Source of the DNA: Pseudofrankia coriaricola
GTDB lineage: Bacteria > Actinomycetota > Actinomycetes > Frankiales > Frankiaceae
DNA length: 48,111 nt
Reading direction: 5' to 3'
NCBI RefSeq assembly: GCF_001854805.1
Contig: NZ_MBLO01000219.1
Coordinates: forward strand, 6,539-54,649
This document shows positions 9,800 to 43,218 of the stretch, piece by piece. A model generated the notes under the pieces. It was not told the DNA's origin. It did not search any database and worked only from the letters and a program-made list of their open reading frames with translations. A program made the translations under genes and the position numbers. Numbering within the stretch: position 1 is the first letter of the stretch; every line of letters starts with the position of its first letter.

Positions 9800-12481
9800 G
9801 TGAGCACCGACCTCGAACGGATCAGCACCGTCGGCATGGTCGACCTGATCGAGCCGGAGCCACCGGCCCAGGCGGACGCGCCGCGACGGGACAACGAGGA
9901 GGACGGCCTCGGCTGCCTGCGAACGGGACGCGGCAACCTGCCGCTCGACGCGATCGACGTCCAGGCCGCGGTCACCGGCCTCGCGTCGACCATCACCCTC
10001 AGTCAGGGCTTTCACAACCCGTACGACGAGCCGCTCGAGGCCACCTACATCTTCCCGCTGCCGCCGCGGGCCGCCGTCACCGCGCTGCGGATGGAGGCGG
10101 ACGGCCGGGTGGTCGAGGCCGAGCTCAAGGAACGCGGCCAGGCGCGGGCGGACTACGACACCGCGATCACCCAGGGCAAGCGCGCGTCGATCGCCGAGGA
10201 GGAGCGCCCCGGCGTCTTCACCATGCGGGTCGGCAACATCCTGCCCGGCGAGCGCGTCACCGTCCGCCTGACGCTGGCCGGCGAGCTGCCCTATGAGGAC
10301 GGCGCCGCGACCTTTCGCTTCCCCCTGGTCGTCGCTCCTCGCTACATCCCCGGCGCTCCGCTCGCGGGCGGACGGGTCGGCGACGGGGTCGCGGCCGACA
10401 CCGACGCCGTACCGGACGCGTCCCGCATCAGCCCACCGGTGCTGCTGCCGGGCTTCCCGAACCCGGTGCGCCTGTCGGTGGACGTCGACGTCGACCCGGC
10501 CGGCCTGCCGCTGGCCGCCGTCGACGCCAGCCTGCACTCGGTCATCACCGAGCGGCGTACGGACGGCCTCCGTGTCCGGCTGGAGCCGGGCGACAGGGCC
10601 GACCGGGACTTCCTGCTGCGCCTCACGTTCGACGCGGACGAGGCGGTCAGCACGTCGCTGTCGGTGCGGTCCGACGAGCCGGCCGCGAGCGGCCAAGCCG
10701 CCACCGACCACGAGGCGGGCGGCAAAGCAGCCAGCGGGACGTTCGCGCTCACGATCCTGCCGCCGGCCGGTACCACTCGGGCCCGGGACCGGGACCTGGT
10801 GCTCGTCCTCGACCGGTCCGGCTCGATGGGCGGCTGGAAGATGATCGCGGCGCGCCGTGCCGCCGGCCGGATCGTCGACACCCTCCGCGGCGGCGACCGC
10901 TTCGCGGTTCTCGCCTTCGACCACCAGGTCGAGACTCCGCCCGCCCTCCCCCGAGGGCTCGCGCCGGCCAGCGACCGCGCCCGGTTCCGGGCCGTCGAGT
11001 TCCTCGCCACCCTGGAGGCCCGCGGCGGGACGGACATGCTGGAGCCCCTGCGGCAGGCCGCCGCCCTGCTCGGCCCGCGGGCCGAGGCGCCCGAGCGCGA
11101 CCGGGTCATCGTGCTGGTCACCGACGGTCAGGTCGGCAACGAGGACCAGCTGCTGCGCGAGCTCGCCACCGGCCTCGCCGGGGCGCGGGTCCACACCGTC
11201 GGCATCGACCGGGCGGTGAACGAGGCGTTCCTGCGCCGGCTGTCCGGCCCGACCGGCCGCTGCGAGCTGGTCGAGTCCGAGGACCGGCTGGACGACGCGA
11301 TGCGCCACATCCACCACCGCATCGACGCGCCCGTCGTCACCGGCCTGCGGCTGCTCCCGGCGGGGCCGGCGGACCTGGCCGTCGACACCGACTCGCTGAC
11401 CCCGACGCCGCTGCCTGACCTGTTCGCCGGCGCCCCGGTGGTCATCCGGGGCAGGTTCACCGGCCAGCCGACGGGCACGATCGCCTTCACGGGCCAGGCC
11501 GACACCGACGCGCCGTGGCGGGCGTCGGTCACGGCGACGGCAAGCGGCAATCCGGCCCTGACGGCCCTGTGGGCACGGGCGCGCATCCGGGATCTGGAGG
11601 ACGCATATGTGGCCGGCCCGTCGGGCCGAGGCGGTCACGACGGCCTGGAGAGGCGCATCGTCGAGACGTCGCTGCGCTACCGCGTGCTGTCCCGCTTCAC
11701 CGCGTTCGTCGCCGTCGACCAGCGCGTCGTCAACGAGGGCGGCACGGTCCGCCGGGTGACGCAGCCCGTCGACCTCCCCAGTGGCTGGTCCGACGAGGCT
11801 CTGGCCGTCGGCGGGCCGCCCAGCGCGCCGCTGTTCGCCGGCAGCGCCGTCGCCGCCAGTTTTGCCGCGCCCGCCGGGCCACCGCCCCCGATGTACCAGC
11901 CGATGCCCCCGTCGATCGTTCCTCCCGCGCCGGCCGGGCCGGCGCCCATCCAAGCGCGGCGGGGCGCCCCGGCGGGCCCGGACGACCTCGACGTGCCCGA
12001 CTTCCTCACCGGCGGAATCTCGGGCCCACGAGCCGCCCCGCGGCCCGGCCGCGGGACAGGCCGTGGCCGGCAGAAGGCCAAACTGACCACCGCTGCCGGA
12101 CCGTCTGGCGCCGGTGTCGACCCGGATGCCGGCACGCTCTCCGCGTTCGTCGCCGCCGAGCTGGCGGTGCTGTCCACGAGCGCCGGGCCCTCGCCTCGTC
12201 CCGGGGCGGCCGACCTGGCCGCGCTCGCCGGCCGCATCCGTGCGGCGCTGCCCGCGTGGCGACGGGCCGGCGAGCACGAGGCCGCATGCGCGGCGCTGGA
12301 GAGGCTCGCCAGCCAGCTCGCCGCCGCGTCCCCGGACCTGTCGGACGCGGCCCGGCTCTGGGAGCACGCCCGCGCGACCCTGGAGGCCATCCGCGACGGA
12401 CGCGCCGACCAGCTCACCGGCGACCGCCCGGTGACGGGCGACCCGACGCGCAGGTCACGGACCGCGTTCTGGAGGCGCTGA
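9800..12481 (+). CDS. VIT domain and von Willebrand factor A domain protein
   Basis: 893 aa. The VIT (vault/inter-alpha-trypsin) domain spans residues about 40-170, with Y-I-F-P-L-P-P and G-E-R-V-T-V. The vWA domain spans about 332-505 and has a complete MIDAS: D338-R-S-G-S342, G-G-T-D and V-T-D-G. A long Pro/Ala-rich linker and a helical C-terminal segment follow. Such proteins bind Mg2+-dependent protein partners; the bacterial role is largely unknown. No signal peptide is visible, so it is probably cytoplasmic. GTG at 9800 is preferred because AGGGGA lies 5-9 nt ahead; an upstream in-frame ATG at 9728 lies inside the operator. Divergent from and probably controlled by the MerR-type gene. 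Confidence 0.88.
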   Translation: MSTDLERISTVGMVDLIEPEPPAQADAPRRDNEEDGLGCLRTGRGNLPLDAIDVQAAVTGLASTITLSQGFHNPYDEPLEATYIFPLPPRAAVTALRMEADGRVVEAELKERGQARADYDTAITQGKRASIAEEERPGVFTMRVGNILPGERVTVRLTLAGELPYEDGAATFRFPLVVAPRYIPGAPLAGGRVGDGVAADTDAVPDASRISPPVLLPGFPNPVRLSVDVDVDPAGLPLAAVDASLHSVITERRTDGLRVRLEPGDRADRDFLLRLTFDADEAVSTSLSVRSDEPAASGQAATDHEAGGKAASGTFALTILPPAGTTRARDRDLVLVLDRSGSMGGWKMIAARRAAGRIVDTLRGGDRFAVLAFDHQVETPPALPRGLAPASDRARFRAVEFLATLEARGGTDMLEPLRQAAALLGPRAEAPERDRVIVLVTDGQVGNEDQLLRELATGLAGARVHTVGIDRAVNEAFLRRLSGPTGRCELVESEDRLDDAMRHIHHRIDAPVVTGLRLLPAGPADLAVDTDSLTPTPLPDLFAGAPVVIRGRFTGQPTGTIAFTGQADTDAPWRASVTATASGNPALTALWARARIRDLEDAYVAGPSGRGGHDGLERRIVETSLRYRVLSRFTAFVAVDQRVVNEGGTVRRVTQPVDLPSGWSDEALAVGGPPSAPLFAGSAVAASFAAPAGPPPPMYQPMPPSIVPPAPAGPAPIQARRGAPAGPDDLDVPDFLTGGISGPRAAPRPGRGTGRGRQKAKLTTAAGPSGAGVDPDAGTLSAFVAAELAVLSTSAGPSPRPGAADLAALAGRIRAALPAWRRAGEHEAACAALERLASQLAAASPDLSDAARLWEHARATLEAIRDGRADQLTGDRPVTGDPTRRSRTAFWRR

Positions 12482-12502: not shown

Positions 12503-13006
12503 CTACTGCGCCGTCAGGAGGGACAGCAGGAGGTGGGTGTCCTGCTGGAAGACGCGGATCTCGCGGATGGTGCCGCCGAGGACGGTGAACACCTCGATGA
12601 CGTCGACCGTCGCCGAGCGGCCAGTCGCCTTCGCCGTCCAGGTCTGGGTCGTGAGCTGGACGGCGCGGGTGGCGTCGCCGAAGACCAGCGGGTTGGTGAT
12701 CGTGCGGTCCCAGTGGCGGCCCGCCTCGGCGTTCATCGCCGCCATGCCGGCCGGGCCTTCGTGCCAGCCGCCGTGCGGCAGCGATTCCGGCTGCTGGACC
12801 CGGATCTCCGGGTACATCAACGTGAACGCGCCCTCAACGTCGCCGGACTGGAAGCGGCGCGCCATCTCGGTCACCACCGTGGCCGCGTCCGCCGCGGACA
12901 CATCGACGCGCTCGGGCTCGGGCTCGGGCTCGTCAGTCAGCAACGGGGTAGTCGGCAACGGGGTGCCGGCGGGATCGGCGGAGCCGGCAGGAGAGGTCTG
13001 GCTCAT
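12503..13006 (-). CDS. SnoaL-like / nuclear transport factor 2-fold protein
   Basis: 167 aa. After a Pro/Glu-rich N-terminal tail, residues about 45-160 read like a SnoaL-like alpha+beta barrel: M-A-R-R-F-Q-S-G-D-V-E-G-A-F-T-L, then a W-x-x-G-P-A-G-M-A-A segment and strands ending V-I-E-V-F-T-V-L-G-G-T-I-R-E-I-R-V-F. The fold is used for ketosteroid-isomerase-like reactions and as small subunits of ring-hydroxylating oxygenases. Its ATG overlaps the Rieske oxygenase stop by 4 nt, so it may be the partner or beta-like subunit of that enzyme (inference). ATG at 13006 is chosen for this coupling; the open frame upstream lies inside the oxygenase. Confidence 0.82.
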   Translation of the reverse strand: MSQTSPAGSADPAGTPLPTTPLLTDEPEPEPERVDVSAADAATVVTEMARRFQSGDVEGAFTLMYPEIRVQQPESLPHGGWHEGPAGMAAMNAEAGRHWDRTITNPLVFGDATRAVQLTTQTWTAKATGRSATVDVIEVFTVLGGTIREIRVFQQDTHLLLSLLTAQ

Positions 13007-14184
13007 GCCGACCCCGCCCCGGCGGCGTGACGGGCGCGGTAGGCCTCGAGTGCCGCCTCGAACCCGCGGTGCAGGTGCTGCGGGGCCGGCTCGTTGCGGC
13101 CGAACACGACCGTGTCGAGCAGGCCGAGGCGCACGCCCGGCTCGGTGCGGCCGGCCACCCAGAAGTCCTCGCCGTCGACGACGGTCTCGCAGATCCACGG
13201 CGCCATGTCGACGGCCTTCGACCGCTCCTCGTCCGTCAGGCCGGGACGCAGGTAGGAGGTGTGCACGACCTCGGAGCTGCTCTCGTCGACCGGGAGGATC
13301 TGCCACAGCTCGACGTGCCGGGCGTCGAAGGTGAGGCTGACGTTGGGGAACAGCGCGTACTGGTAGCTGAAGTGCCGGCCGACGTCGCCCCAGTCGGCCT
13401 CGGGGCGCTCGCGCAGCTCGACGATCGACTTCAGCGCGGAGCTGTTGCGCAGGTGCGGGCCGAACGGGTCGAACGTCAGCACACCGCCGACGGCGTAGGT
13501 GGCGAGCGTGGTCTTGTGCAGGTAGTTGAAGTGGTAGTTCTCCCGGAAGGTGTCCAGGGTGACCTTCCAGTTGCCGCCCACCTTGTGCACGTGCGGCTCG
13601 CTGTGGGGTTCCCAGTCGGCGAAGTCGAGCAGGGCCAGCTCGCCGGCCAGCTCCGGGCCGAGGTATTCGTCGATGTCGACCGCCGGGCCGGGCCGCAGCC
13701 GGCCGACGATGAGCCCGTAGCCCTCGGTGACCTCGAGCGGGATCAGCCCCTTGCGGCTCTTGTCCAGCCCGGTGAAGCCGTCGGGCACCGGCATGCGGCC
13801 GAGCTTCCCGTCCAGGCCGTACGTCCAGGCGTGGAACGGGCAGGTCAGCCGGATGGCCTCCCCGGCGCCGTCGGCGAGACGCACCCCGCGGTGGCGGCAG
13901 GCGTTGAGGAACGCGTGCACCTGGCCGTCGCCATCTCTGGTCAGCAACACCGGGGTGCCGAGCAGGTCGACCGCCCGGTAGGTCTCCGGCTCCGGCAGCG
14001 CGCCCGAAAGGCAGAGCACGAGAGGCTGGTCGAGGAACAGCGCCTCAATCTCCTCTGCCTGCCGCTCGGCCGAGTAAATGTCGGTCGGCAGTTCCATGAC
14101 GTCATCGGCCATGTCCGTCGTGCGGTTGTCGATGTGATCGAGCAACCGGCGCGCGAGGCTGCGTTCGAGTGCTTCCCTGTCCAC
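13003..14184 (-). CDS. Rieske non-haem iron oxygenase, large subunit
   Basis: 393 aa. The Rieske cluster ligands are C96-R-H98 and C115-P-F-H118. The mononuclear iron site is E-N-Y-H218-x4-H223, with an acidic third ligand expected in D-G-E-D-F-W. This is the ring-hydroxylating dioxygenase/demethylase family, which uses NAD(P)H via a reductase to hydroxylate aromatic or other substrates. No reductase or ferredoxin gene is adjacent, so electron supply must come from elsewhere. The start is GTG at 14184 with AGGA about 10 nt ahead. It is followed by the translationally coupled SnoaL-like gene. Confidence 0.93.
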   Translation of the reverse strand: MDREALERSLARRLLDHIDNRTTDMADDVMELPTDIYSAERQAEEIEALFLDQPLVLCLSGALPEPETYRAVDLLGTPVLLTRDGDGQVHAFLNACRHRGVRLADGAGEAIRLTCPFHAWTYGLDGKLGRMPVPDGFTGLDKSRKGLIPLEVTEGYGLIVGRLRPGPAVDIDEYLGPELAGELALLDFADWEPHSEPHVHKVGGNWKVTLDTFRENYHFNYLHKTTLATYAVGGVLTFDPFGPHLRNSSALKSIVELRERPEADWGDVGRHFSYQYALFPNVSLTFDARHVELWQILPVDESSSEVVHTSYLRPGLTDEERSKAVDMAPWICETVVDGEDFWVAGRTEPGVRLGLLDTVVFGRNEPAPQHLHRGFEAALEAYRARHAAGAGSA

Positions 14185-14341: not shown

Positions 14342-15592
14342 CTACTGCTGCGGCTTACCCACAACGAACGGCTTCTCGACAGTGACGACGAGCTTGCCGT
14401 CCTTGATCTCGCCTTGCGACGCCGACTGGTTCTTCACCCGCGGGATGCCCTGGACGCCCGGGGAAGTGAAGTCGATCGGCGCGGTCGCGCCCTGCGTGTC
14501 GAGCGCGGTCTGCTTGTCCAGGTACTCCCGGATCTTCACGGCGTCGACGACGCCGACCTTGGGGATGATGTCCGCGAGCAGCTTGACGCTGAGCCAGGCG
14601 TTGATCGCGGTGTCACCGATGGTGTTGGTGATCCCACCGACCTGCTTGGCGTACTTCTGGACGTCGTCGTTGAACGCGCTGATGGCGCCCTCACCGAAGG
14701 ACAGGACGACCAGGTTCGGCTGGTTGAGGTTCGTGACGGTCTCGACGACCTGCGGCGTGAGCACGATGCTCGGCAGCGCCCACGTCAGCTTGGTGAGGCC
14801 GATCTGGTTGCAGGTCTGGATCAGCGGGGCGAGCTGGCGGGGGTTGATCGCGGGGACCGCGGTGTCCGCGCCGCTCTGCTTGATCTGCAGGCAGGTCGGC
14901 TGGAAGTCGGTGGCCGTCAGGCCCAGCTTGATCTGGTCGACCGTGACCGACGGCGGGTAGTAGCTGGCGGAGACCTTCGCCGACGACTGCGCGATGGCCG
15001 AGTCAGCAGAGATGTAGGCGACGCGCTTCGTGCTGGCCGGCAGCATCTGCGGCAGGATCCGGAAGGACACCAGGACCGGCTCGATGACGTAGACCCGCGG
15101 GTTCTGCAGGGACGCCGACGCGGCGCCGAGGCTCGCCCAGGAGATCGTGTTGGCCGTGTCCAGCGTCGGGAGCAGGCTCGGCTCCATCGTGCCGTCGTCA
15201 CCGGCCATCATGAGGACCTTGTCCTCGACCAACAGCTTCTGGGCGCACACCGAGGCGCCCTGCGGCGTGTTGTGATCGTCGCAGACGTCGATCTCGACCG
15301 GCCGGCCCAGGATCCCGCCGTTCGCGTTGACCGACGCCGCCGCGATCTTCGCGGCCTGCGCGACCCACGGCTGGGACACCGCGTCGGTCTGGATCCCGGT
15401 CATGAGCCCCAGCTTGATCGGGGCGCCGGTGGGCTTGGGCGCGGTGGCGGCGCCGGCGTCGGGCTTGTCCGAGTCCGACGAGCCGCCGCAGGCCGCGACG
15501 AGGAGCGTCACGCCTAAGAGCGCCGCCACTAACTGCTTGCGGGGTAAGCGCACCTGGGGTCTTCCAGCCGAGCTCGGCTGAATTGCTGGCAT
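14342..15592 (-). CDS. ABC transporter substrate-binding lipoprotein (Peripla_BP_6, branched-chain amino acid type)
   Basis: 416 aa. The N terminus has basic residues, a hydrophobic core and the lipobox L-V-A-A-C (Cys about residue 35), then a Gly/Ser/Asp linker. The mature part shows the Liv-type solute-binding fold: I-K-L-G-L-M-T-G at its start, then N-A-N-G-G-I-L-G-R-P-V-E. It is anchored outside the membrane and should deliver a substrate to a LivHMGF-type importer. The fused LivHMG gene at 24974 is the only such permease in the window, but linkage is unproven. GGAG precedes the ATG at 15592. It lies 89 bp after the amidohydrolase, so the two may be one transcript. Confidence 0.92.
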   Translation of the reverse strand: MPAIQPSSAGRPQVRLPRKQLVAALLGVTLLVAACGGSSDSDKPDAGAATAPKPTGAPIKLGLMTGIQTDAVSQPWVAQAAKIAAASVNANGGILGRPVEIDVCDDHNTPQGASVCAQKLLVEDKVLMMAGDDGTMEPSLLPTLDTANTISWASLGAASASLQNPRVYVIEPVLVSFRILPQMLPASTKRVAYISADSAIAQSSAKVSASYYPPSVTVDQIKLGLTATDFQPTCLQIKQSGADTAVPAINPRQLAPLIQTCNQIGLTKLTWALPSIVLTPQVVETVTNLNQPNLVVLSFGEGAISAFNDDVQKYAKQVGGITNTIGDTAINAWLSVKLLADIIPKVGVVDAVKIREYLDKQTALDTQGATAPIDFTSPGVQGIPRVKNQSASQGEIKDGKLVVTVEKPFVVGKPQQ

Positions 15593-15681: not shown

Positions 15682-16884
15682 CTAGGAGATGACCGCCGGG
15701 TCGGCGGGGGTGAAGTTGTAGACGCGGGCCGCGTTCCCGACAGTGATCTTGTACTGGACGTCCTCGGGCAGGTGGCCGAGCCACTTGTTGGCCATCGAGA
15801 TGGTGTCCGGCCAGGTGGAGTCCGAGTGCGGGTAGTCGCACTCGAGCATCACGTTGTCCTCGCCGATGATGTCCAGCAGCCGGATGCCGGCCTGGTCCTC
15901 GATGAACGTGCCGAAGACGTGGTCGTGGAACAGCTTGCGGATGTCGGTGTCCAGGTCGAAGGACGCCGCGCCCTTCGCCTCGCCGCGCTCGTGGGAGGCA
16001 TTCATGTCGATGTCGAAGCGTGACGCCCAGAAACGCTGCTTGTCGATGACCTGCTCGGCCCGCTCCAGGAAGTACGGAATCCAGCCGATCGAGCCCTCGG
16101 AAAGGGCGATCTTCAGGTTCGGGTACTTCGGGAAGATCCCGCTGAACAGCCAGTCGAGCAGCGTGCCCGCCTGGTTCGCCGCCGCCGAATAGGCCATGAA
16201 CGCGAGCGTCGGCATGTCCGCCGAGGTACGGATCAGGTTGGACGACGAGCCGACGTGCATCGAGATGACGTAGTTCGTGTCGTTGCAGGCCTGGAACACC
16301 GGGTCCCAGTAGTCGGTGTGGATCGACGGCAGGCCGAGCTTCGTCGGGTTCTCCGAGAACGCGATCGACTTGCCGCCGCGCGCCGCCGTCCGCTCGATCT
16401 CGGCCGCCGCCGCCGCCGGGTCCCACAGCGGAATGATCATCATCGGGATGAAGCGGCCGGGGAAGTCGCCGGCGAACTCCTCCAGGATGAAGTCGTTCCA
16501 GGCCTGGACGCAGAGCAGGCCGAGCTCCTTGTCCTTGGCCTCGTGGAAGACCTGGCCGCAGTAGCGCGGGAAGCTCGGGAACAGGATCGACGAGAGCACG
16601 TGGCCCTGGTCCATGTCCGCGACGCGGGCGGCCGGGTCATAGCAGCCGAGGCGCATGTCCTCGTAGGTGATCGGCTCGGGCGAGAACTCCTCGCGCGTCT
16701 TGCCGGCGACGGCGTTCAGGCCCGTGGTGACGATCTGGCGGTCCTCGTAGACCCAGAACTCGGAAGCGCCGTCCCGGACGATGCGCGGCCCGGTGTCCCG
16801 CCAGCGCTCGGGCAGCCGCTCCTGCCACAGCCGGGCCGGCTCGATGAGGTGGTCGTCGACCGAGACGAACCAGTTGAACGACAC
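15682..16884 (-). CDS. amidohydrolase family protein (amidohydrolase_2)
   Basis: 400-aa TIM-barrel metal hydrolase/decarboxylase of the PF04909 type. Metal-site candidates are V-D-D-H-L-I-E-P (D10, D11, H12), I-S-M-H-V-G-S in the middle and E-C-D-Y-P-H-S-D near the C terminus. The family contains ring-opening hydrolases and non-oxidative decarboxylases of aromatic or unsaturated acids. It starts at GTG 16884 with GGAGG 5 nt ahead. A palindrome at 17008-17019 sits 124 bp upstream. The neighbouring solute-binding protein suggests that import and processing of one compound are linked. A paralogous enzyme is at 44241. Confidence 0.9.
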   Translation of the reverse strand: MSFNWFVSVDDHLIEPARLWQERLPERWRDTGPRIVRDGASEFWVYEDRQIVTTGLNAVAGKTREEFSPEPITYEDMRLGCYDPAARVADMDQGHVLSSILFPSFPRYCGQVFHEAKDKELGLLCVQAWNDFILEEFAGDFPGRFIPMMIIPLWDPAAAAAEIERTAARGGKSIAFSENPTKLGLPSIHTDYWDPVFQACNDTNYVISMHVGSSSNLIRTSADMPTLAFMAYSAAANQAGTLLDWLFSGIFPKYPNLKIALSEGSIGWIPYFLERAEQVIDKQRFWASRFDIDMNASHERGEAKGAASFDLDTDIRKLFHDHVFGTFIEDQAGIRLLDIIGEDNVMLECDYPHSDSTWPDTISMANKWLGHLPEDVQYKITVGNAARVYNFTPADPAVIS

Positions 16885-24217: not shown

Positions 24218-24928
24218 ATGGCCGACTCGACGGCGGAGCAGACTGTCTCGGAGTCCGGCCCGGCTCCGACTGCCGGGGCGGAGCCCGAGGTCAGACCGCG
24301 GCCGCGGCGGCTGACCGCCGAGGCGCGCAAGAGCTCCATTCTGAAGGCTGCCCGCCAGGCGTTCGTCGAGACCGGCGACATGAATGGCACCACTATCAAG
24401 CAGATCGCCGAACGTGGTGGCATCAGCGAAGGCGTGATCTACCGCCATTTCGAGAGCAAGGACCAGCTCTTCTACGAGGCCGTCTTCGAGCCACTGCGCC
24501 AGGCGATCGACGAGTTGGTGGCCGCCTCCGAGGTCGTCGATCTCAACGAGCCGCTGACGCCCGAGCGGCAGCTGGAAACCCTCAACGGCCTGTACCGCCA
24601 ACTCATCGCCACGCTCGAGGAGATCCTGCCGCTGCTGGGCCTGGTGCTCTTCGGCGACCCGAAGGTGGCGCGGCGCTTCTACCGCAAGCACTTCACCGTC
24701 GCCATGGACCGGCTGGCCGAGGCCTGGCGCGAGGTCGAGGACCGCTACGGCTTCGAGTTCGAGTCCCCGGACATCTCCGCCCGCGCCGTCATGGGCATCG
24801 CCCTGGTGCTCGCCCTGGAGAGCCGGCACAACGACCTCTTCAACCGCGACCGCGCGATCAGCCTCGTCACCCAGAGCACCGTCAAGGGCTTCTTCCCCAC
24901 CATCGAGCCCACCCGCCGCCGCCGGTAA
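24218..24928 (+). CDS. TetR/AcrR-family transcriptional regulator
   Basis: 236 aa. After a disordered acidic N-terminal tail, the TetR_N HTH spans about residues 35-85: I-L-K-A-A-R-Q-A-F-V-E-T, T-T-I-K-Q-I-A-E-R-G-G-I-S-E-G-V-I-Y-R-H-F-E-S-K-D-Q-L. The C-terminal helical ligand domain is variable, so the inducer is unknown. GGGAGG sits close before the ATG. It lies between the SDR (divergent) and the LivHMG fusion (convergent, separated by a strong terminator). Confidence 0.92.
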   Translation: MADSTAEQTVSESGPAPTAGAEPEVRPRPRRLTAEARKSSILKAARQAFVETGDMNGTTIKQIAERGGISEGVIYRHFESKDQLFYEAVFEPLRQAIDELVAASEVVDLNEPLTPERQLETLNGLYRQLIATLEEILPLLGLVLFGDPKVARRFYRKHFTVAMDRLAEAWREVEDRYGFEFESPDISARAVMGIALVLALESRHNDLFNRDRAISLVTQSTVKGFFPTIEPTRRRR

Positions 24929-24973: not shown

Positions 24974-27892
24974 TCAGACGCCTTCGGCCGCGACCGGTTC
25001 GGGCGCGGCGGCCTCGGCGGCCTCGGAGCTCAGCTGGCCGAGGTAGGCGGCGCGCACCGCCGGGTCGCGCAGCACCTCGTCGGGCCGGCCGGAGGCGATG
25101 ACCCTGCCGAAGTCGAGCACCACCACGTGGTCGCAGGTCGAGGCGACCACGTCGATGTTGTGCTCGACCAGCAGCACCGCCGCGCCTGACTCGGCCGCGA
25201 GCCGGCGGAACAGCGCGCTCGCGGTGCGCCGCTCGGCGCCGCCCAGGCCGGCCGCCGGCTCGTCGAGCAGCACCGCGGCCGGGCGCTGGGCGACCAGCCG
25301 GGCGATCGCCACCATCCGGCGCCGGCCCTGTGGCAGGTCGGCGACGACGGTGTCGAGCACGTCGTCGAGGCCGAGCATCGTCACCGCGGCCGAGGCGGTG
25401 TCGGACAGGCTGCCGCGGCGCGGGTAGGCCAGGTCGCGGATGTAGGCGAGCGCGCCGCGGCCGTCGAGCGCGGTGAGGATGTTCTCCCGGACGCTCAGGT
25501 CGTCGAACAGCTCCAGGTTCTGGAACGTCCGCCCGAGGCCGAGGCGGGCGCGGGCGGGAGCACGCAGCGCGGTGACGTCGCGGCCGAGCAGCTCGACGGT
25601 GCCACCGGCGGTCCTGGCGAAGCCGGTGAGGGCGTCGATGAGGCTGGTCTTGCCGGCGCCGTTCGGCCCGATCACACCCACGACCCGTCCGGCGGTCAGC
25701 TCGAACGACACCCCGCCGACGGCGACCGTGTTGCCGTAGCGCACCTCGATGTCGCGCGCGACGAGCACGGTCTCCCCCGCCGGGACCGGGCAGCTCGGCT
25801 GGAACGCCAATGGCCGCCGCGCCGCGCCGCCGTTGGCCGCCGCGCCGCCACTCACCGCGGCCTCATCGGCCGCCGCGGAGCCGGTCTCGCCTGTCGCCCC
25901 GATCCCGTCGGCCGTGGCGGTAGCGCCTGCCGCGGCCGGCTCCGCGGGCTCGGCTGGGCGGCGGGTGAGCCGGACGACGAGGCGGACCAGGCCGTCCTTG
26001 ATCGCGGCCTGCGCCGGGATGATGCCGCTGGGCGAGCGGACCATGGCGTCGAGGACGACCAGACCCGTCGCGATCGGCAGCCACGCGTCGATGGAGCCGA
26101 CGGACAGCCAGTCCGACACGGCGTTGGCTACCACGCCGCCCGCGGCCGCGGACGCCGAGAAGACCGCCCCGGCGACGTATCCGACGCCGCCGACGACGGT
26201 GAACGCCAGTGCCGAGATCGACCGGAACACCCCGTAACTGGTGAAGTCCGCGATCCGGAACTGGAACGCCGACAGCGCCCCGGCAAGCCCGGCGATCCCC
26301 GCCGAGATGGCGAACGCGCCGAGCTTCGCGCCGGGCACCGACACGCCGACGGACGCCGCTCCCCGCTCGTTCGCCCGCACCGCGAGGAAGCGCCGCCCGG
26401 CCTCACCGCGGCGCAGGTTGAGCACCGCGACCGAGGCGAGCACGAAGGCGGCGAGGCACACGAGCGCGAACCGGTTCGGGTGCGCGGACGGGCTGATGTT
26501 CAGGCCGAACAGTGACGGGTCGTGCACCGTCAGGCCGTCGAGCCCGCCCGTCATCGACGGCTGGGTGAGCACCAGGTTCTCGACCGCGAGCGAGAGCCCG
26601 AGCGTGACGATCGCCAGGTTGACCCCGCGCACCCGCACCGCCGGGGCACCGAAGACCACGCCGAGCACGACGGCGGCGACGGTCCCGAGCAGCACGCAGA
26701 GCAGGAACGGCAGGTGTAGGTCGTTGCTCATCCGGGCGGCGATGAACGCGGCGAAGCCGGCGAGCGCGGCGCAGGCCACGCTGATCTGCCCGGCATAGCC
26801 GGTGACGACGACGATCGACAGGGCGAGCAGGCCGAACAGGGTGCTGTTGATGGTCGCCGCCGACCAGGATGGCGAGGCGAACAGCGGGATGGCGACCGCG
26901 GCCACCACCCAGACGAGCGCGGTCACCGGCTTGAACCGGCCCGTTCCGGCTCGTGGCAGCCGGCCGGTCAGCGCCTCGCCCCGGCCCGGCAGCGCCGCGC
27001 CGCCGAGGATGACGGAGACGATGATCACCGCGAACGGCAGCGAGGAGACGATGCCGAGGTTGACGTCGTAGCGGCGCATCACCGACTCGGCGACGCCGAG
27101 GGCGAGCCCGACGACGACGGTGATCCACACGGCGTTGAACCGGCCGACGAGGGCCGCGGCCATGGCCGGGATGACCAGCAGGGTGAGCGCGTCCGGGGTG
27201 AGGCCGATGACCGGGATGAGCAGGATGCCGGCGAAGGCGGCGACCGCCCCGCCGACGCCCCAGGTGATCAGGCCGGTCGGGTGCGGCGAGATCCCGATGG
27301 CGCTGGCGGCGACGGGGTTCTCCCGCAGGGCGGTGGCGTTCATCCCCAGCTTGGTCTTGCCGAACATCAGCCACAGGCCGAGCGCGAGCGCGAGCGTGAC
27401 GATCAGGATGGCGAGCGTGTCGTTCGTGATCACACCACTGAAGATGGTGATCTTGCCGTGCCCGAACAGCGGCGGAAGAAGGTGGGACTCGGTGCCGTAA
27501 CGCTTCACGACCACGCTCTGCAGCAGCAGCATCAGCCCGAGGGTGGCGACCACCTTGGCCATGTCGGGGCTGTTGCGCAGCAACCGCACCACGACGAGGT
27601 AGAACAGCAGGCCCAGCACGGCGCCGGACGCCACCCCGATGGCCATGGCCGGGGCGACGGGTAACGACGCGTGCGCGCCCCCGCTACTGCTGGTTCCCGA
27701 GTAGAGCCCACCGCCGCCCGCCCCGCCGGCGTGCAGGTCCCAGAAGATGTAGCTGCCCACCATGCCGATGGCACCCTGGGCGAAGTTCAGGATTCCCGAG
27801 CCCCGGTAGACCGCGACCACGCCGAGCGCGACGAGCGCATACGCGCCGCCGCCGGCTAAGCCGATCAGGGCGAACTGCCACAGCTGCGACAA
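24974..27892 (-). CDS. branched-chain-type ABC transporter, LivH-LivM-LivG fusion
   Basis: 972 aa holding three normally separate subunits. Residues about 1-300 are a LivH permease (A-L-V-A-L-G-V-V-A-V-Y-R-G-S-G-I-L-N-F-A-Q-G). About 315-625 are a LivM permease (G-Y-A-G-Q-I-S-V-A, then N-E-R-G-A-A-S-V-G-V). An Ala/Gly-rich linker leads to a LivG ATPase with Walker A G742-P-N-G-A-G-K-T, signature L-P-Q-G-R-R-R, Walker B A-A-V-L-L-D-E-P and the H-loop V-E-H. No second ATPase (LivF) is adjacent. The TTG start at 27892 is chosen because GAGGA lies ahead and LivH homology begins there; the frame is open 63 codons further upstream without homology. It imports amino acids, amides or aromatic/organic acids; substrate unknown. 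Confidence 0.92.
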   Translation of the reverse strand: MSQLWQFALIGLAGGGAYALVALGVVAVYRGSGILNFAQGAIGMVGSYIFWDLHAGGAGGGGLYSGTSSSGGAHASLPVAPAMAIGVASGAVLGLLFYLVVVRLLRNSPDMAKVVATLGLMLLLQSVVVKRYGTESHLLPPLFGHGKITIFSGVITNDTLAILIVTLALALGLWLMFGKTKLGMNATALRENPVAASAIGISPHPTGLITWGVGGAVAAFAGILLIPVIGLTPDALTLLVIPAMAAALVGRFNAVWITVVVGLALGVAESVMRRYDVNLGIVSSLPFAVIIVSVILGGAALPGRGEALTGRLPRAGTGRFKPVTALVWVVAAVAIPLFASPSWSAATINSTLFGLLALSIVVVTGYAGQISVACAALAGFAAFIAARMSNDLHLPFLLCVLLGTVAAVVLGVVFGAPAVRVRGVNLAIVTLGLSLAVENLVLTQPSMTGGLDGLTVHDPSLFGLNISPSAHPNRFALVCLAAFVLASVAVLNLRRGEAGRRFLAVRANERGAASVGVSVPGAKLGAFAISAGIAGLAGALSAFQFRIADFTSYGVFRSISALAFTVVGGVGYVAGAVFSASAAAGGVVANAVSDWLSVGSIDAWLPIATGLVVLDAMVRSPSGIIPAQAAIKDGLVRLVVRLTRRPAEPAEPAAAGATATADGIGATGETGSAAADEAAVSGGAAANGGAARRPLAFQPSCPVPAGETVLVARDIEVRYGNTVAVGGVSFELTAGRVVGVIGPNGAGKTSLIDALTGFARTAGGTVELLGRDVTALRAPARARLGLGRTFQNLELFDDLSVRENILTALDGRGALAYIRDLAYPRRGSLSDTASAAVTMLGLDDVLDTVVADLPQGRRRMVAIARLVAQRPAAVLLDEPAAGLGGAERRTASALFRRLAAESGAAVLLVEHNIDVVASTCDHVVVLDFGRVIASGRPDEVLRDPAVRAAYLGQLSSEAAEAAAPEPVAAEGV

Positions 27893-28040
27893 CGGGCTTT
27901 CCTCTCGGCTGCGCCCCCGCCCCGGTGGGAGGGTCAGGCACGTTTCGGCGGGGAGGGGTGGCTCGCGCCAGCCCCGACGGGCGACGGGCGGCGAGGGCCG
28001 GCCACGACGGGCACGCCTCACGCCGGAGATCGCGGAGTGT

Positions 28041-28069
28041 AGTGTAACCGCGATCACACACGGTCGCAA
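28041..28069 (-). promoter_or_regulatory. predicted promoter of the LivHMG fusion gene
   Basis: Minus-strand TTGCGA (28069-28064), 17-bp spacer, TACACT (28046-28041), leaving a leader of about 140 nt. The dyad GTGAG-CC-CTCAC abuts the -35 box on its upstream side. Confidence 0.55.
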
Positions 28070-28081
28070 GTGAGCCCTCAC
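28070..28081. promoter_or_regulatory. dyad GTGAG-CC-CTCAC next to the LivHMG -35 box
   Basis: Perfect 5-bp arms with 2-bp centre. It has the same R-Y-GAG-NN-CTC-R-Y pattern as 28173-28184, about 100 bp away in the same intergenic region. Confidence 0.4.
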
Positions 28082-28171
28082 ATAGTTAGCAGATCGGAAA
28101 GAGGCTCAGGTGAGCCGCCACCCGGCCGCTAGCGGGCCATAGTCGGCCCGTCACCCCTTGTGACGCAAGCT

Positions 28172-28226: not shown

Positions 28227-29705
28227 GTGAGCGACCCGCTGATGTACCGGCGCACGTTCTACATCGACGGCGCCTGGGTGGAGCCGTCGAGCACCGAGGT
28301 GCTCGAGGTGATCTCACCGTCCACGGAGGAGCCGGCGGGCGCGGTCCCCCTGGCCACGACCGCGGACATCGACCGTGCCGTCGCCGCGGCCCGGGCCGCG
28401 GCCGACGAGGGCTCCTGGGCCCGCACCAGCCCGGCCGAGCGCGCCGAGGTGCTCAGCCGCGCCGCCGCCGAGCTGCGCAAGCGCGAGGACGACATCGCCC
28501 GCATCACCACCGACGAGATGGGCTGCGCGGCGAGCCAGTCGAAGGCCGCGCAGACGGGCCTGGTCGCCGTCGTCTTCGACTACTACGCCGAGCTGATCCG
28601 GTCCTACGAGTTCGAGCGCGTCGTCACCGCCGGCCCCCGGGCCGGCCTGGTGACCTCCGAGCCGGTCGGCGTCGTCGGCGCGATCGTCCCGTGGAACGCC
28701 CCGATCACGCTGGCCGCCTGGAAGACCGCGCCGGCGCTCGCCGCCGGGTGCCCGGTGGTGCTCAAGCCCGCGCCCGAATCGCCGCTGTCTGCCTACGTCT
28801 TCGTCGAGGCGCTCGAGGCGGCCGGCGTCCCCGCCGGCCTGGTCAACCTCGTGCCCGGCGGCCGGGAGGTCGGCGAGCACCTCGTCACCCACCCCGGCAC
28901 CGACAAGATCGCCTTCACCGGCTCGACCGCCGCGGGCAAGCGGATCATGAGCCTGTGCGGTGAACAGATCAAACGGGTGTCGCTGGAGCTCGGCGGCAAG
29001 TCCGCCTCGATCCTGCTCGACGACGCCGACCTCGCCACGGTCATCCCGGCCGTCGTCCACGGCGGCATGCACCTGTCCGGCCAGGTCTGCGGCGCGCACA
29101 CCCGGGTGCTGGTGCCCCGGTCCCGCTACGAGGAGGCGCTCGCCATCGCGGGCGCGGCGGCCGACGCGGAGCCGGTCGGCGACCCGCACGACCCGGCGGT
29201 CATCGTCGGCCCGCTGGTCGCCGAGCGCCAGCGCACCCGCGTCGAGGGCCTCATCGCCGGCGCCGTCGCCGATGGCGTCCGCGTCGTCGCCGGCGGCAAG
29301 CGGCCCGCGCACCTGCCGAAGGGCTGGTACGTCGCGCCGACGATCCTCGGCGACGTCCACAACGAGATGCGGATCGCCCGCGAGGAGATCTTCGGCCCGG
29401 TCCTGAGCTTCATTCCCTACGAGGACTCGGACGGCGCCGACGACGCGGTCCGGATCGCGGGCGACTCGGACTACGGCCTGTCCGGCGGGGTCTGGAGCGG
29501 CGACGCGGCGCGGGCGCTCGGCGTCGCACGCCGGCTGCGCACCGGCAGCGTCGCGGTCAACGGCAGCTACCCGCCCTTCCCGATGGTGCCGTTCGGCGGC
29601 TTCAAGCAGTCGGGCATCGGCCGGGAGCTGGGCCCGGAGGGGTTGGAAAGCTTCCTGGAAAAGCGCAGCATCGGTCTCCCGCCGTCGCTCATCCCCGGCG
29701 CTTAG
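28227..29705 (+). CDS. aldehyde dehydrogenase family protein
   Basis: 492-aa NAD(P)-dependent ALDH. The oxyanion Asn is in V-P-W-N-A-P, the general base Glu254 in L-E-L-G-G-K, and the catalytic nucleophile Cys288 in S-G-Q-V-C-G. The C terminus G-G-F-K-Q-S-G-I-G-R-E-L-G is complete. It converts aldehydes to acids (or acyl-CoA if acylating). GTG at 28227 with GGGAGG just ahead is preferred; ATG at 28242 is an alternative. Divergent from LivHMG and followed by the small barrel protein and a P450, so it likely serves alcohol-to-acid oxidation in the same pathway. Confidence 0.93.
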   Translation: MSDPLMYRRTFYIDGAWVEPSSTEVLEVISPSTEEPAGAVPLATTADIDRAVAAARAAADEGSWARTSPAERAEVLSRAAAELRKREDDIARITTDEMGCAASQSKAAQTGLVAVVFDYYAELIRSYEFERVVTAGPRAGLVTSEPVGVVGAIVPWNAPITLAAWKTAPALAAGCPVVLKPAPESPLSAYVFVEALEAAGVPAGLVNLVPGGREVGEHLVTHPGTDKIAFTGSTAAGKRIMSLCGEQIKRVSLELGGKSASILLDDADLATVIPAVVHGGMHLSGQVCGAHTRVLVPRSRYEEALAIAGAAADAEPVGDPHDPAVIVGPLVAERQRTRVEGLIAGAVADGVRVVAGGKRPAHLPKGWYVAPTILGDVHNEMRIAREEIFGPVLSFIPYEDSDGADDAVRIAGDSDYGLSGGVWSGDAARALGVARRLRTGSVAVNGSYPPFPMVPFGGFKQSGIGRELGPEGLESFLEKRSIGLPPSLIPGA

Positions 29706-42171: not shown

Positions 42172-43218
42172 TCAGCGGACCTCGACGGAGTCGCCGGCGG
42201 ACCAGCGGCGCAGGACGAGGTATCGGCCGTGCAGGGCGCCGCGGTCGTGGTGGCCGAAGGAGAGCTGGGTGCCGTCCTGACCTTCGGCGGCGGGGAGCCA
42301 CTTGATCTGTTCCAGGCCCTCGCGGACGCCGGCCCGGGTCAGCTCGGGCGCGCGGGCCAGGCCGTCGACGGCCAGGCGGGCCAGGTCGTAGCCCTTCGCC
42401 GCCGCGGCGGCCCGCGCCGGCGGGACCGCCAGGCGTTCGAGCAACGCGGTCAGCGTCGCGTTCCCGTCGGAGTACATGTCGATGTATACCCAGCCGTCGA
42501 GGGCCCGGCCGACCTCGGGCTGCCGGCCGAACATCCCCGCGGAGTTCATCACCCGAGGTCCGTCCCAGCCGGCGCCCGCCGCCGCCCGGGCCACCGCCGA
42601 CGCCGACCGGCCGAGCCCGAGGTAGACGAGCCCGTCCACCTTCGCGTCGAGCACCTCGCCGACCTGCGCGGCCGCGTCCTCGGTGAGCGGGGACAGCCCG
42701 ACCGTCGCGGCCACGGCGAGCCCGATGATCTCCGCCTCGGCCGTCAGGTAGTGCAGGTAGCGCCGCCCGATCGGGGACCGGTCGTAGGCGATGCCCACCC
42801 GGCGCGCGCCGAGGTCCGCCAGGTGCCGGGCGAGCACGACGCTCTCGTCCTCGTGCGAGCCGACCTGCAGGTGGAACATCCAGTCCCCACGGGCCCGCTC
42901 CGTGCCGGCCCAGTTGATGGTCGGGATCCGGTGCCGCTCGGCGAGCGGGGTGGCCACGAGCGCGTTGTCGCCGATCGCCGGGCCGACGACGAGCAGCACG
43001 TCGGCGTCGACGAGCCGGGCGAACGCCCGCTCTACCGCGGCCGCGGTCCCGCTCGGGAGCCCGAGCCCGTGCGACCCGACGATCTCGACATCCCGGTCCA
43101 GCCGGCCGGCCGCGCGGTACTCGTCGGCCGCGAGCCGCAGCCAGTACTCGATGTCCGTCGGGCTCGGCGGCGCATCCGTCAGATCGTCGAGGAATCCCAC
43201 CCGCAGCGGCGCCGCCAT
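42172..43218 (-). CDS. substrate-binding (Peripla_BP-type) protein without signal peptide
   Basis: 348 aa. It begins directly with the mature solute-binding fold: R-V-G-F-L-D-D-L-T, then D-V-L-L-V-V-G-P-A-I-G-D-N-A, a hinge G-A-R-R-V-G-I-A-Y-D-R-S-P-I-G-R-R-Y and V-D-G-L-V-Y-L-G. There is no hydrophobic leader or lipobox before this; the frame upstream is Arg-rich and out of family. It may be a cytoplasmic ligand sensor or an amide-sensing AmiC-like protein rather than a transporter part. ATG at 43218 follows GAGAGG at some distance. The upstream hydrolase is separated by a strong palindrome. Confidence 0.85.
   Translation of the reverse strand: MAAPLRVGFLDDLTDAPPSPTDIEYWLRLAADEYRAAGRLDRDVEIVGSHGLGLPSGTAAAVERAFARLVDADVLLVVGPAIGDNALVATPLAERHRIPTINWAGTERARGDWMFHLQVGSHEDESVVLARHLADLGARRVGIAYDRSPIGRRYLHYLTAEAEIIGLAVAATVGLSPLTEDAAAQVGEVLDAKVDGLVYLGLGRSASAVARAAAGAGWDGPRVMNSAGMFGRQPEVGRALDGWVYIDMYSDGNATLTALLERLAVPPARAAAAAKGYDLARLAVDGLARAPELTRAGVREGLEQIKWLPAAEGQDGTQLSFGHHDRGALHGRYLVLRRWSAGDSVEVR

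Follow-up and report, generated by a model that had tools for sequence, protein, structure and literature searches.

In the actinobacterium Pseudofrankia coriaricola, a single gene encodes both membrane subunits and one ATPase of a HAAT/Liv-type ABC importer, which seemingly leaves the importer without half of its ATPase and raises the question of where its second ATPase is encoded. The gene lies in a stretch of 48,111 nucleotides (the window; contig C219, positions 6539-54649) of a genome of 11.2 Mb in 280 contigs (G000), and it is organized as follows:

24974..27892, minus strand: LivH-LivM-LivG fusion gene, 972 amino acids, TTG start (frame and profile matches)
27011..27874, minus strand: LivH domain (profile match, 282 bits; coordinates converted from the ORF match)
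26021..26899, minus strand: LivM domain (profile match, 320 bits; coordinates converted)
25757..26020, minus strand: Ala/Gly-rich linker from LivM to LivG, 43-113 amino acids across orthologues
25043..25756, minus strand: LivG ATPase domain with LPQGR signature and intact Walker A, Q-loop, Walker B and H-loop

A stop-free minus-strand frame extends from 24977 to 28105 around the gene, and the TTG at 27892, preceded by the purine-rich GAGAGGAAAG, is its likely start, giving 972 residues. The order of Pfam domains in the protein is BPD_transp_2 in two stretches, of LivH and LivM type as in HAAT/Liv-type permeases (173.7 bits for the whole protein; Pfam cut-off 26.8), ABC_tran (91.7 bits; cut-off 25) and the BCA_ABC_TP_C tail of LivG-type ATPases (40.9 bits; cut-off 25.5). 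With 170.5 bits the LivG domain stays below the curated cut-off of 362 of the NCBIfam equivalog NF008449, i.e., it is LivG-like and not the branched-chain amino acid LivG equivalog. A search of the PDB with the permease part resulted in no match at E<=1, and a plasmid search with the fusion protein gave no location at which 80% of its length was covered.

The sequence-only reading of this DNA had described a single chain with an Ala/Gly-rich linker in front of the ATPase and had proposed to look for the same domain order in other genomes. Both the chain and the linker proved real. The same chain is present in one open frame in six named records (L065-L069 and L074; 64-93% identity), the best named-record match being Pseudofrankia asymbiotica with 90% in the best segment, and also in the genomes of further relatives, one of which is a single contig of 8,815,781 bases. 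Since these orthologues are intact in a single frame, a frameshift or an assembly join behind the fusion appears very unlikely and was rejected. In seven orthologues the linker comprises 43-113 residues and its identity to the window falls to 25%, compared with 67-97% for the H, M and G segments.

The assumption that a three-way fusion is a less usual arrangement did not hold. The window's chain is matched at E<=1e-120 in 28 of 35 genomes of the family, in open frames of 928-1342 residues, and with profiles made in this analysis ten other H-M-G chains were found in G000, i.e., 11 counting that of the window. For this count 78 permease-domain matches in the genome were considered, all of which are covered by 45 fetched stretches and the window. 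Moreover, G000 encodes three H-M-F chains (L010, L012 and L019) and one natural H-M-F-G chain, in which the four core subunits share a frame of 1279 codons (L001:5625-9461, contig C263). As in the window, permeases are fused in these four chains to an ATPase of the pair, but the fused part is LivF or both ATPases and not LivG alone. In the systems with an H-M-F chain and a separate LivG the H-loop residue is Glu, not Gln. In a permease tree of 61 pairs, calculated by a quick method with SH-aLRT support only and without the six loci L015, L020, L032, L090, L096 and L099, a starred branch (98) separates the fused LivHM proteins from the rest, and the H-M-F chains group in a single clade (100).

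Fusions of the H-M-G type are also found on plasmids of Rhodococcus (WP_081558992.1 of BH4; WP_011600149.1 of RHA1 pRHL2), likewise as one chain with a separate LivF and an adjoining binding protein; unlike in the window, however, LivF directly adjoins the fusion, and the identity to the window protein is about 40% or less. In the permease tree as well as in the LivF tree, the window's clade has its closest sister in the H-M-G fusion of Paraburkholderia tropica (L072, L084; 40% identity), which differs from the window's in that its LivF overlaps or abuts the fusion. Within G000 the complementary ATPase gene lies within about 6 kb for 13 of the 14 three-domain chains, including L013 and L015, where the end of the contig truncates this gene, and only the window's chain is without. 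The first fusion of L007 (C258) was considered as a second orphan and dismissed, as a divergent LivF was found 5 kb upstream. Another locus, L003 (C242:21000-37000), encodes separate H, M and G subunits without a near LivF, and in its LivG the Walker A and Q-loop motifs are separated by a proline-rich insert that contains an APPAHEP-like repeat. Near-identical LivFs are located at the ends of three contigs (L013, L015 and L041), and either stem from a recent duplication or represent a repeat in the assembly.

In agreement with the sequence-only reading, profile searches of the window and of C219:1-7000 revealed neither an ATPase of LivF type nor a second one of Liv type. Following its suggestion, LivF was sought near homologues and in the rest of the genome, and was found in both. 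In L068 a LivF gene is located 92 bases after the orthologous fusion on the opposite strand, in L069 24 bases before it and in L074 2.8 kb after it, separated from it by genes for an amidohydrolase and the binding protein. Among themselves these three LivFs share 64-75% identity, and with the other LivFs compared at most about 51-52%, 54% being reached over one shorter stretch. In G000 the LivF matching this clade, and with it a separate second ATPase of Liv type, is encoded outside the window at C36:311029-311745. Among the 26 LivF-profile matches in G000 at E<=1e-45 (25 LivFs and one LivG domain), 24 of the 25 LivFs have a LivH or LivM gene no more than about 6 kb away; the C36 copy is the only exception, and no permease was found in the 39 kb fetched around it.

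The distribution of this LivF follows that of the fusion. A search of 31 genomes with the LivF of L074 gave matches of 75-82% in just six, G000, G001, G003, G005, G006 and G011, which are also the six with the orthologous fusion. With the LivF of G000 the clade was found in seven of 345 genomes of the class (the same six and G271; 77-99%), the next best match being G015 with 50%. The orthologous fusion (70% or more) is present in seven of the 35 family genomes, and these are the same seven; of the 35, 28 were named in the class search, G010 was covered by the search of 31 genomes, and the other six are taken as being among the 317 unlisted class genomes without a LivF match. These seven genomes are related and do not represent seven independent events; outside the family the co-occurrence comes from L068 and L069. 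Overall, each of the nine genomes or records that have an orthologue and in which LivF could be sought contains a LivF of this one clade.

In G001, G003 and G006, LivF and fusion share a contig and a strand at distances of about 42, 44 and 51 kb, and most of the genes in between are conserved. In G000, G005 and G011 they are located on different contigs. With C36 preceding C219, right end to left end, as indicated by the synteny with G006, the distance in G000 would be at least about 58 kb, to which the gap between the contigs adds. The LivF of the window's fusion thus looks displaced, not lost.

Phylogenetic comparison of the subunits points in the same direction. The clade of the window's fusion joins the P. 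tropica fusions in the permease (HM) tree (97, starred), the clade of nine LivFs joins the P. tropica LivFs in the LivF tree (97, starred), and the two trees agree on the sister group. Furthermore, the distance matrices of LivG and LivF correlate with 0.77 over 51 systems (1 of 2001 by permutation), i.e., the 55 pairs without L015 and the clade pairs L068, L069 and L074. By LivG distances the C36 LivF is the best of 25 candidates (r 0.847; runner-up 0.838), and by LivM distances it ranks third. Distance matching, which made the true partner the top candidate for only 6 of 20 known systems, lends weak support to the pairing with the C36 LivF.

The sequence-only reading regarded the ATPase signature of the fusion as altered. 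The LPQGRRR stretch is indeed present; as a special feature of this protein it was rejected, since a non-SGG signature is the normal state of LivG and occurs in 52 of 56 systems (55 pairs and the window's fusion with the C36 LivF), the four exceptions all being Thaumarchaeota. LivF has SGG in all 56 systems, with Gln at the H-loop position in 52, Glu in three and a gap in one. Over 154 non-identical ATPase domains, the 80 of LivG type all have the Q-loop Gln, the Walker B Glu and the H-loop His and only four have LSGG, whereas the 74 of LivF type all have SGG and none has the H-loop His; the seeds of the profiles had been assigned to LivG or LivF by visual inspection and in part from the signature, making the signature count partly circular, and the H-loop, the Q-loop and the named E. 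coli genes serve as independent checks. E. coli LivKHMGF (MG1655, L143) consists of the same four subunit types and shows the same motifs, LAYGD and H-loop His in LivG and MSGGE and H-loop Gln in LivF. It is, however, encoded by five separate genes in one cluster, while the window's system joins H, M and G in a single chain and has LivF and the binding protein encoded at a distance.

As judged from sequence, the ATP-site residues are divided between the two ATPases in the pattern of one canonical and one degenerate site. Because the motifs are split in this way, each LivG/LivF pair is predicted to form one canonical composite ATP site and a LivG homodimer none. The division of motifs spans bacteria and archaea among the 56 systems, and a search of the open-access literature returned no paper discussing it.

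The surroundings of the fusion provide a candidate for the substrate-binding protein and a metabolic context:

14342..15529, minus strand: probable cognate substrate-binding lipoprotein, Peripla_BP_6, over cut-off (gene order in relatives)
13003..14112, minus strand: Rieske oxygenase alpha-subunit-like gene (L068 orthologue between LivF and binding protein)
15682..16884, minus strand: amidohydrolase, Amidohydro_2 (L074 orthologue between fusion and binding protein)
24218..24928, plus strand: TetR-type regulator, convergent with the fusion (orthologue adjoins the fusion in seven of the further regions compared)
28227..29705, plus strand: long open frame, divergent from the fusion, aldehyde-dehydrogenase-like by reading (adjoins the fusion in several relatives)

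The fusion gene stands alone on its strand, as the TetR-type gene converges with it and the other long frame diverges from it. The protein encoded at 14342-15529 carries a lipobox-like VAAC and the Peripla_BP_6 domain of Liv-type importers, and its pairing with the fusion is suggested by gene order, its orthologues adjoining the fusion or its LivF in L068, L069 and L074. It is 73% identical to the protein between fusion and LivF in L074, and it matches the proteins beside the fusion or LivF in L068 (54-57%) and L069 (about 51% among relatives). A second Peripla_BP_6 protein is encoded at 42172-43218 of the window, far from transporter genes, with a 79% match in L066. In the whole genome 103 Peripla_BP_6 matches face about 27 Liv-type permease sets, so that binding proteins far outnumber transporters. 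The window also encodes an 893-residue protein with VIT and VWA domains (9800-12481). Fusion, LivF and binding protein share an island of genes for Rieske oxygenases, an acyl-CoA dehydrogenase, amidohydrolases, a thiolase, a CoA transferase and a luciferase-like monooxygenase, with a POR/DUF6537 oxidoreductase just upstream of LivF. The substrate of the importer is probably whatever the enzymes of this island degrade, and it need not be an amino acid.

Sequence, gene order, co-occurrence, tree agreement and motif pattern together suggest that the fused H-M-G chain very probably works with a dedicated LivF, the one encoded tens of kb off at C36:311029-311745 in the same conserved catabolic island. 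The single chain would form the membrane core of the importer and contribute the catalytic ATPase, with LivF as the second ATPase, and the complex would most likely consist of one H-M-G chain, one LivF and one lipoprotein, resulting in two membrane halves and two ATPase sites, with the lipoprotein encoded at 14342-15529 as the probable substrate donor. Its sole canonical composite site would combine the Walker motifs, the Q-loop and the H-loop of LivG with the SGG signature of LivF, and with a single such site the fused chain should depend on LivF for activity. One step further, and at present an unlikely though conceivable extension, the roles might be divided such that LivG is catalytic and LivF lends only the signature to the one live site. 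The fusion would then bind the catalytic half to the membrane part and leave LivF a free subunit, the supply of LivF, set by the catabolic operon, switching the importer on.

Sugar importers of the MsmX type are type I importers with a homodimeric, shared ATPase, whereas the window's system would use one clade-specific LivF. The fused chain might nevertheless draw on a shared pool and use any of the 25 LivFs that this one genome encodes, and the permease set of L003, likewise without a near LivF, makes such sharing possible. NBDs are exchangeable between sugar importers (PMC7658222), and the multitask ATPases are, as in the window's system, encoded apart from the permease. Pooling, however, would not need a single LivF clade to track the fusion through nine genomes and records with agreeing trees, and we regard it as improbable.

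ABC importers follow a plan of two TMDs. The sequence-only reading had left it open whether two copies of the chain dimerise or a LivF from elsewhere joins, and the clade LivF in all nine genomes and records favors the latter. A dimer of two H-M-G chains, with a LivG homodimer, two LivH and two LivM, would be in line with the lack of an adjacent LivF and with a LivG in which every motif but the signature is intact; yet both of its sites would have LPQGR in place of SGG, its doubled membrane subunits are at odds with the two-TMD plan, and the clade has retained its own LivF in every genome examined. This arrangement was rejected on motifs and LivF co-occurrence and has very little probability left. 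The scattering of the partner genes might also be read as the mark of a decaying leftover or an assembly artefact, which is hardly credible at all given the conserved intact frame in nine genomes and records and the much better conservation of the domains than of the linker.

An importer seemingly without half of its ATPase becomes a testable pair, consisting of a fused H-M-G chain and one named, far-off LivF. A LivF that is missing beside a fusion is not thereby missing from the genome, a point of relevance to automatic annotation. Moreover, from the motif split in the 56 LivG/LivF pairs, importers of this class are predicted to have only one canonical ATP site, and this prediction can be tested in E. 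coli LivFGHM. The system is an ordinary Liv-type importer in an unusual genetic layout, with three subunits fused and the genes for LivF and the binding protein dispersed over the same island. If the supply of LivF indeed switches the importer on, the displacement of LivF into the degradation operon of the substrate would couple uptake to breakdown.
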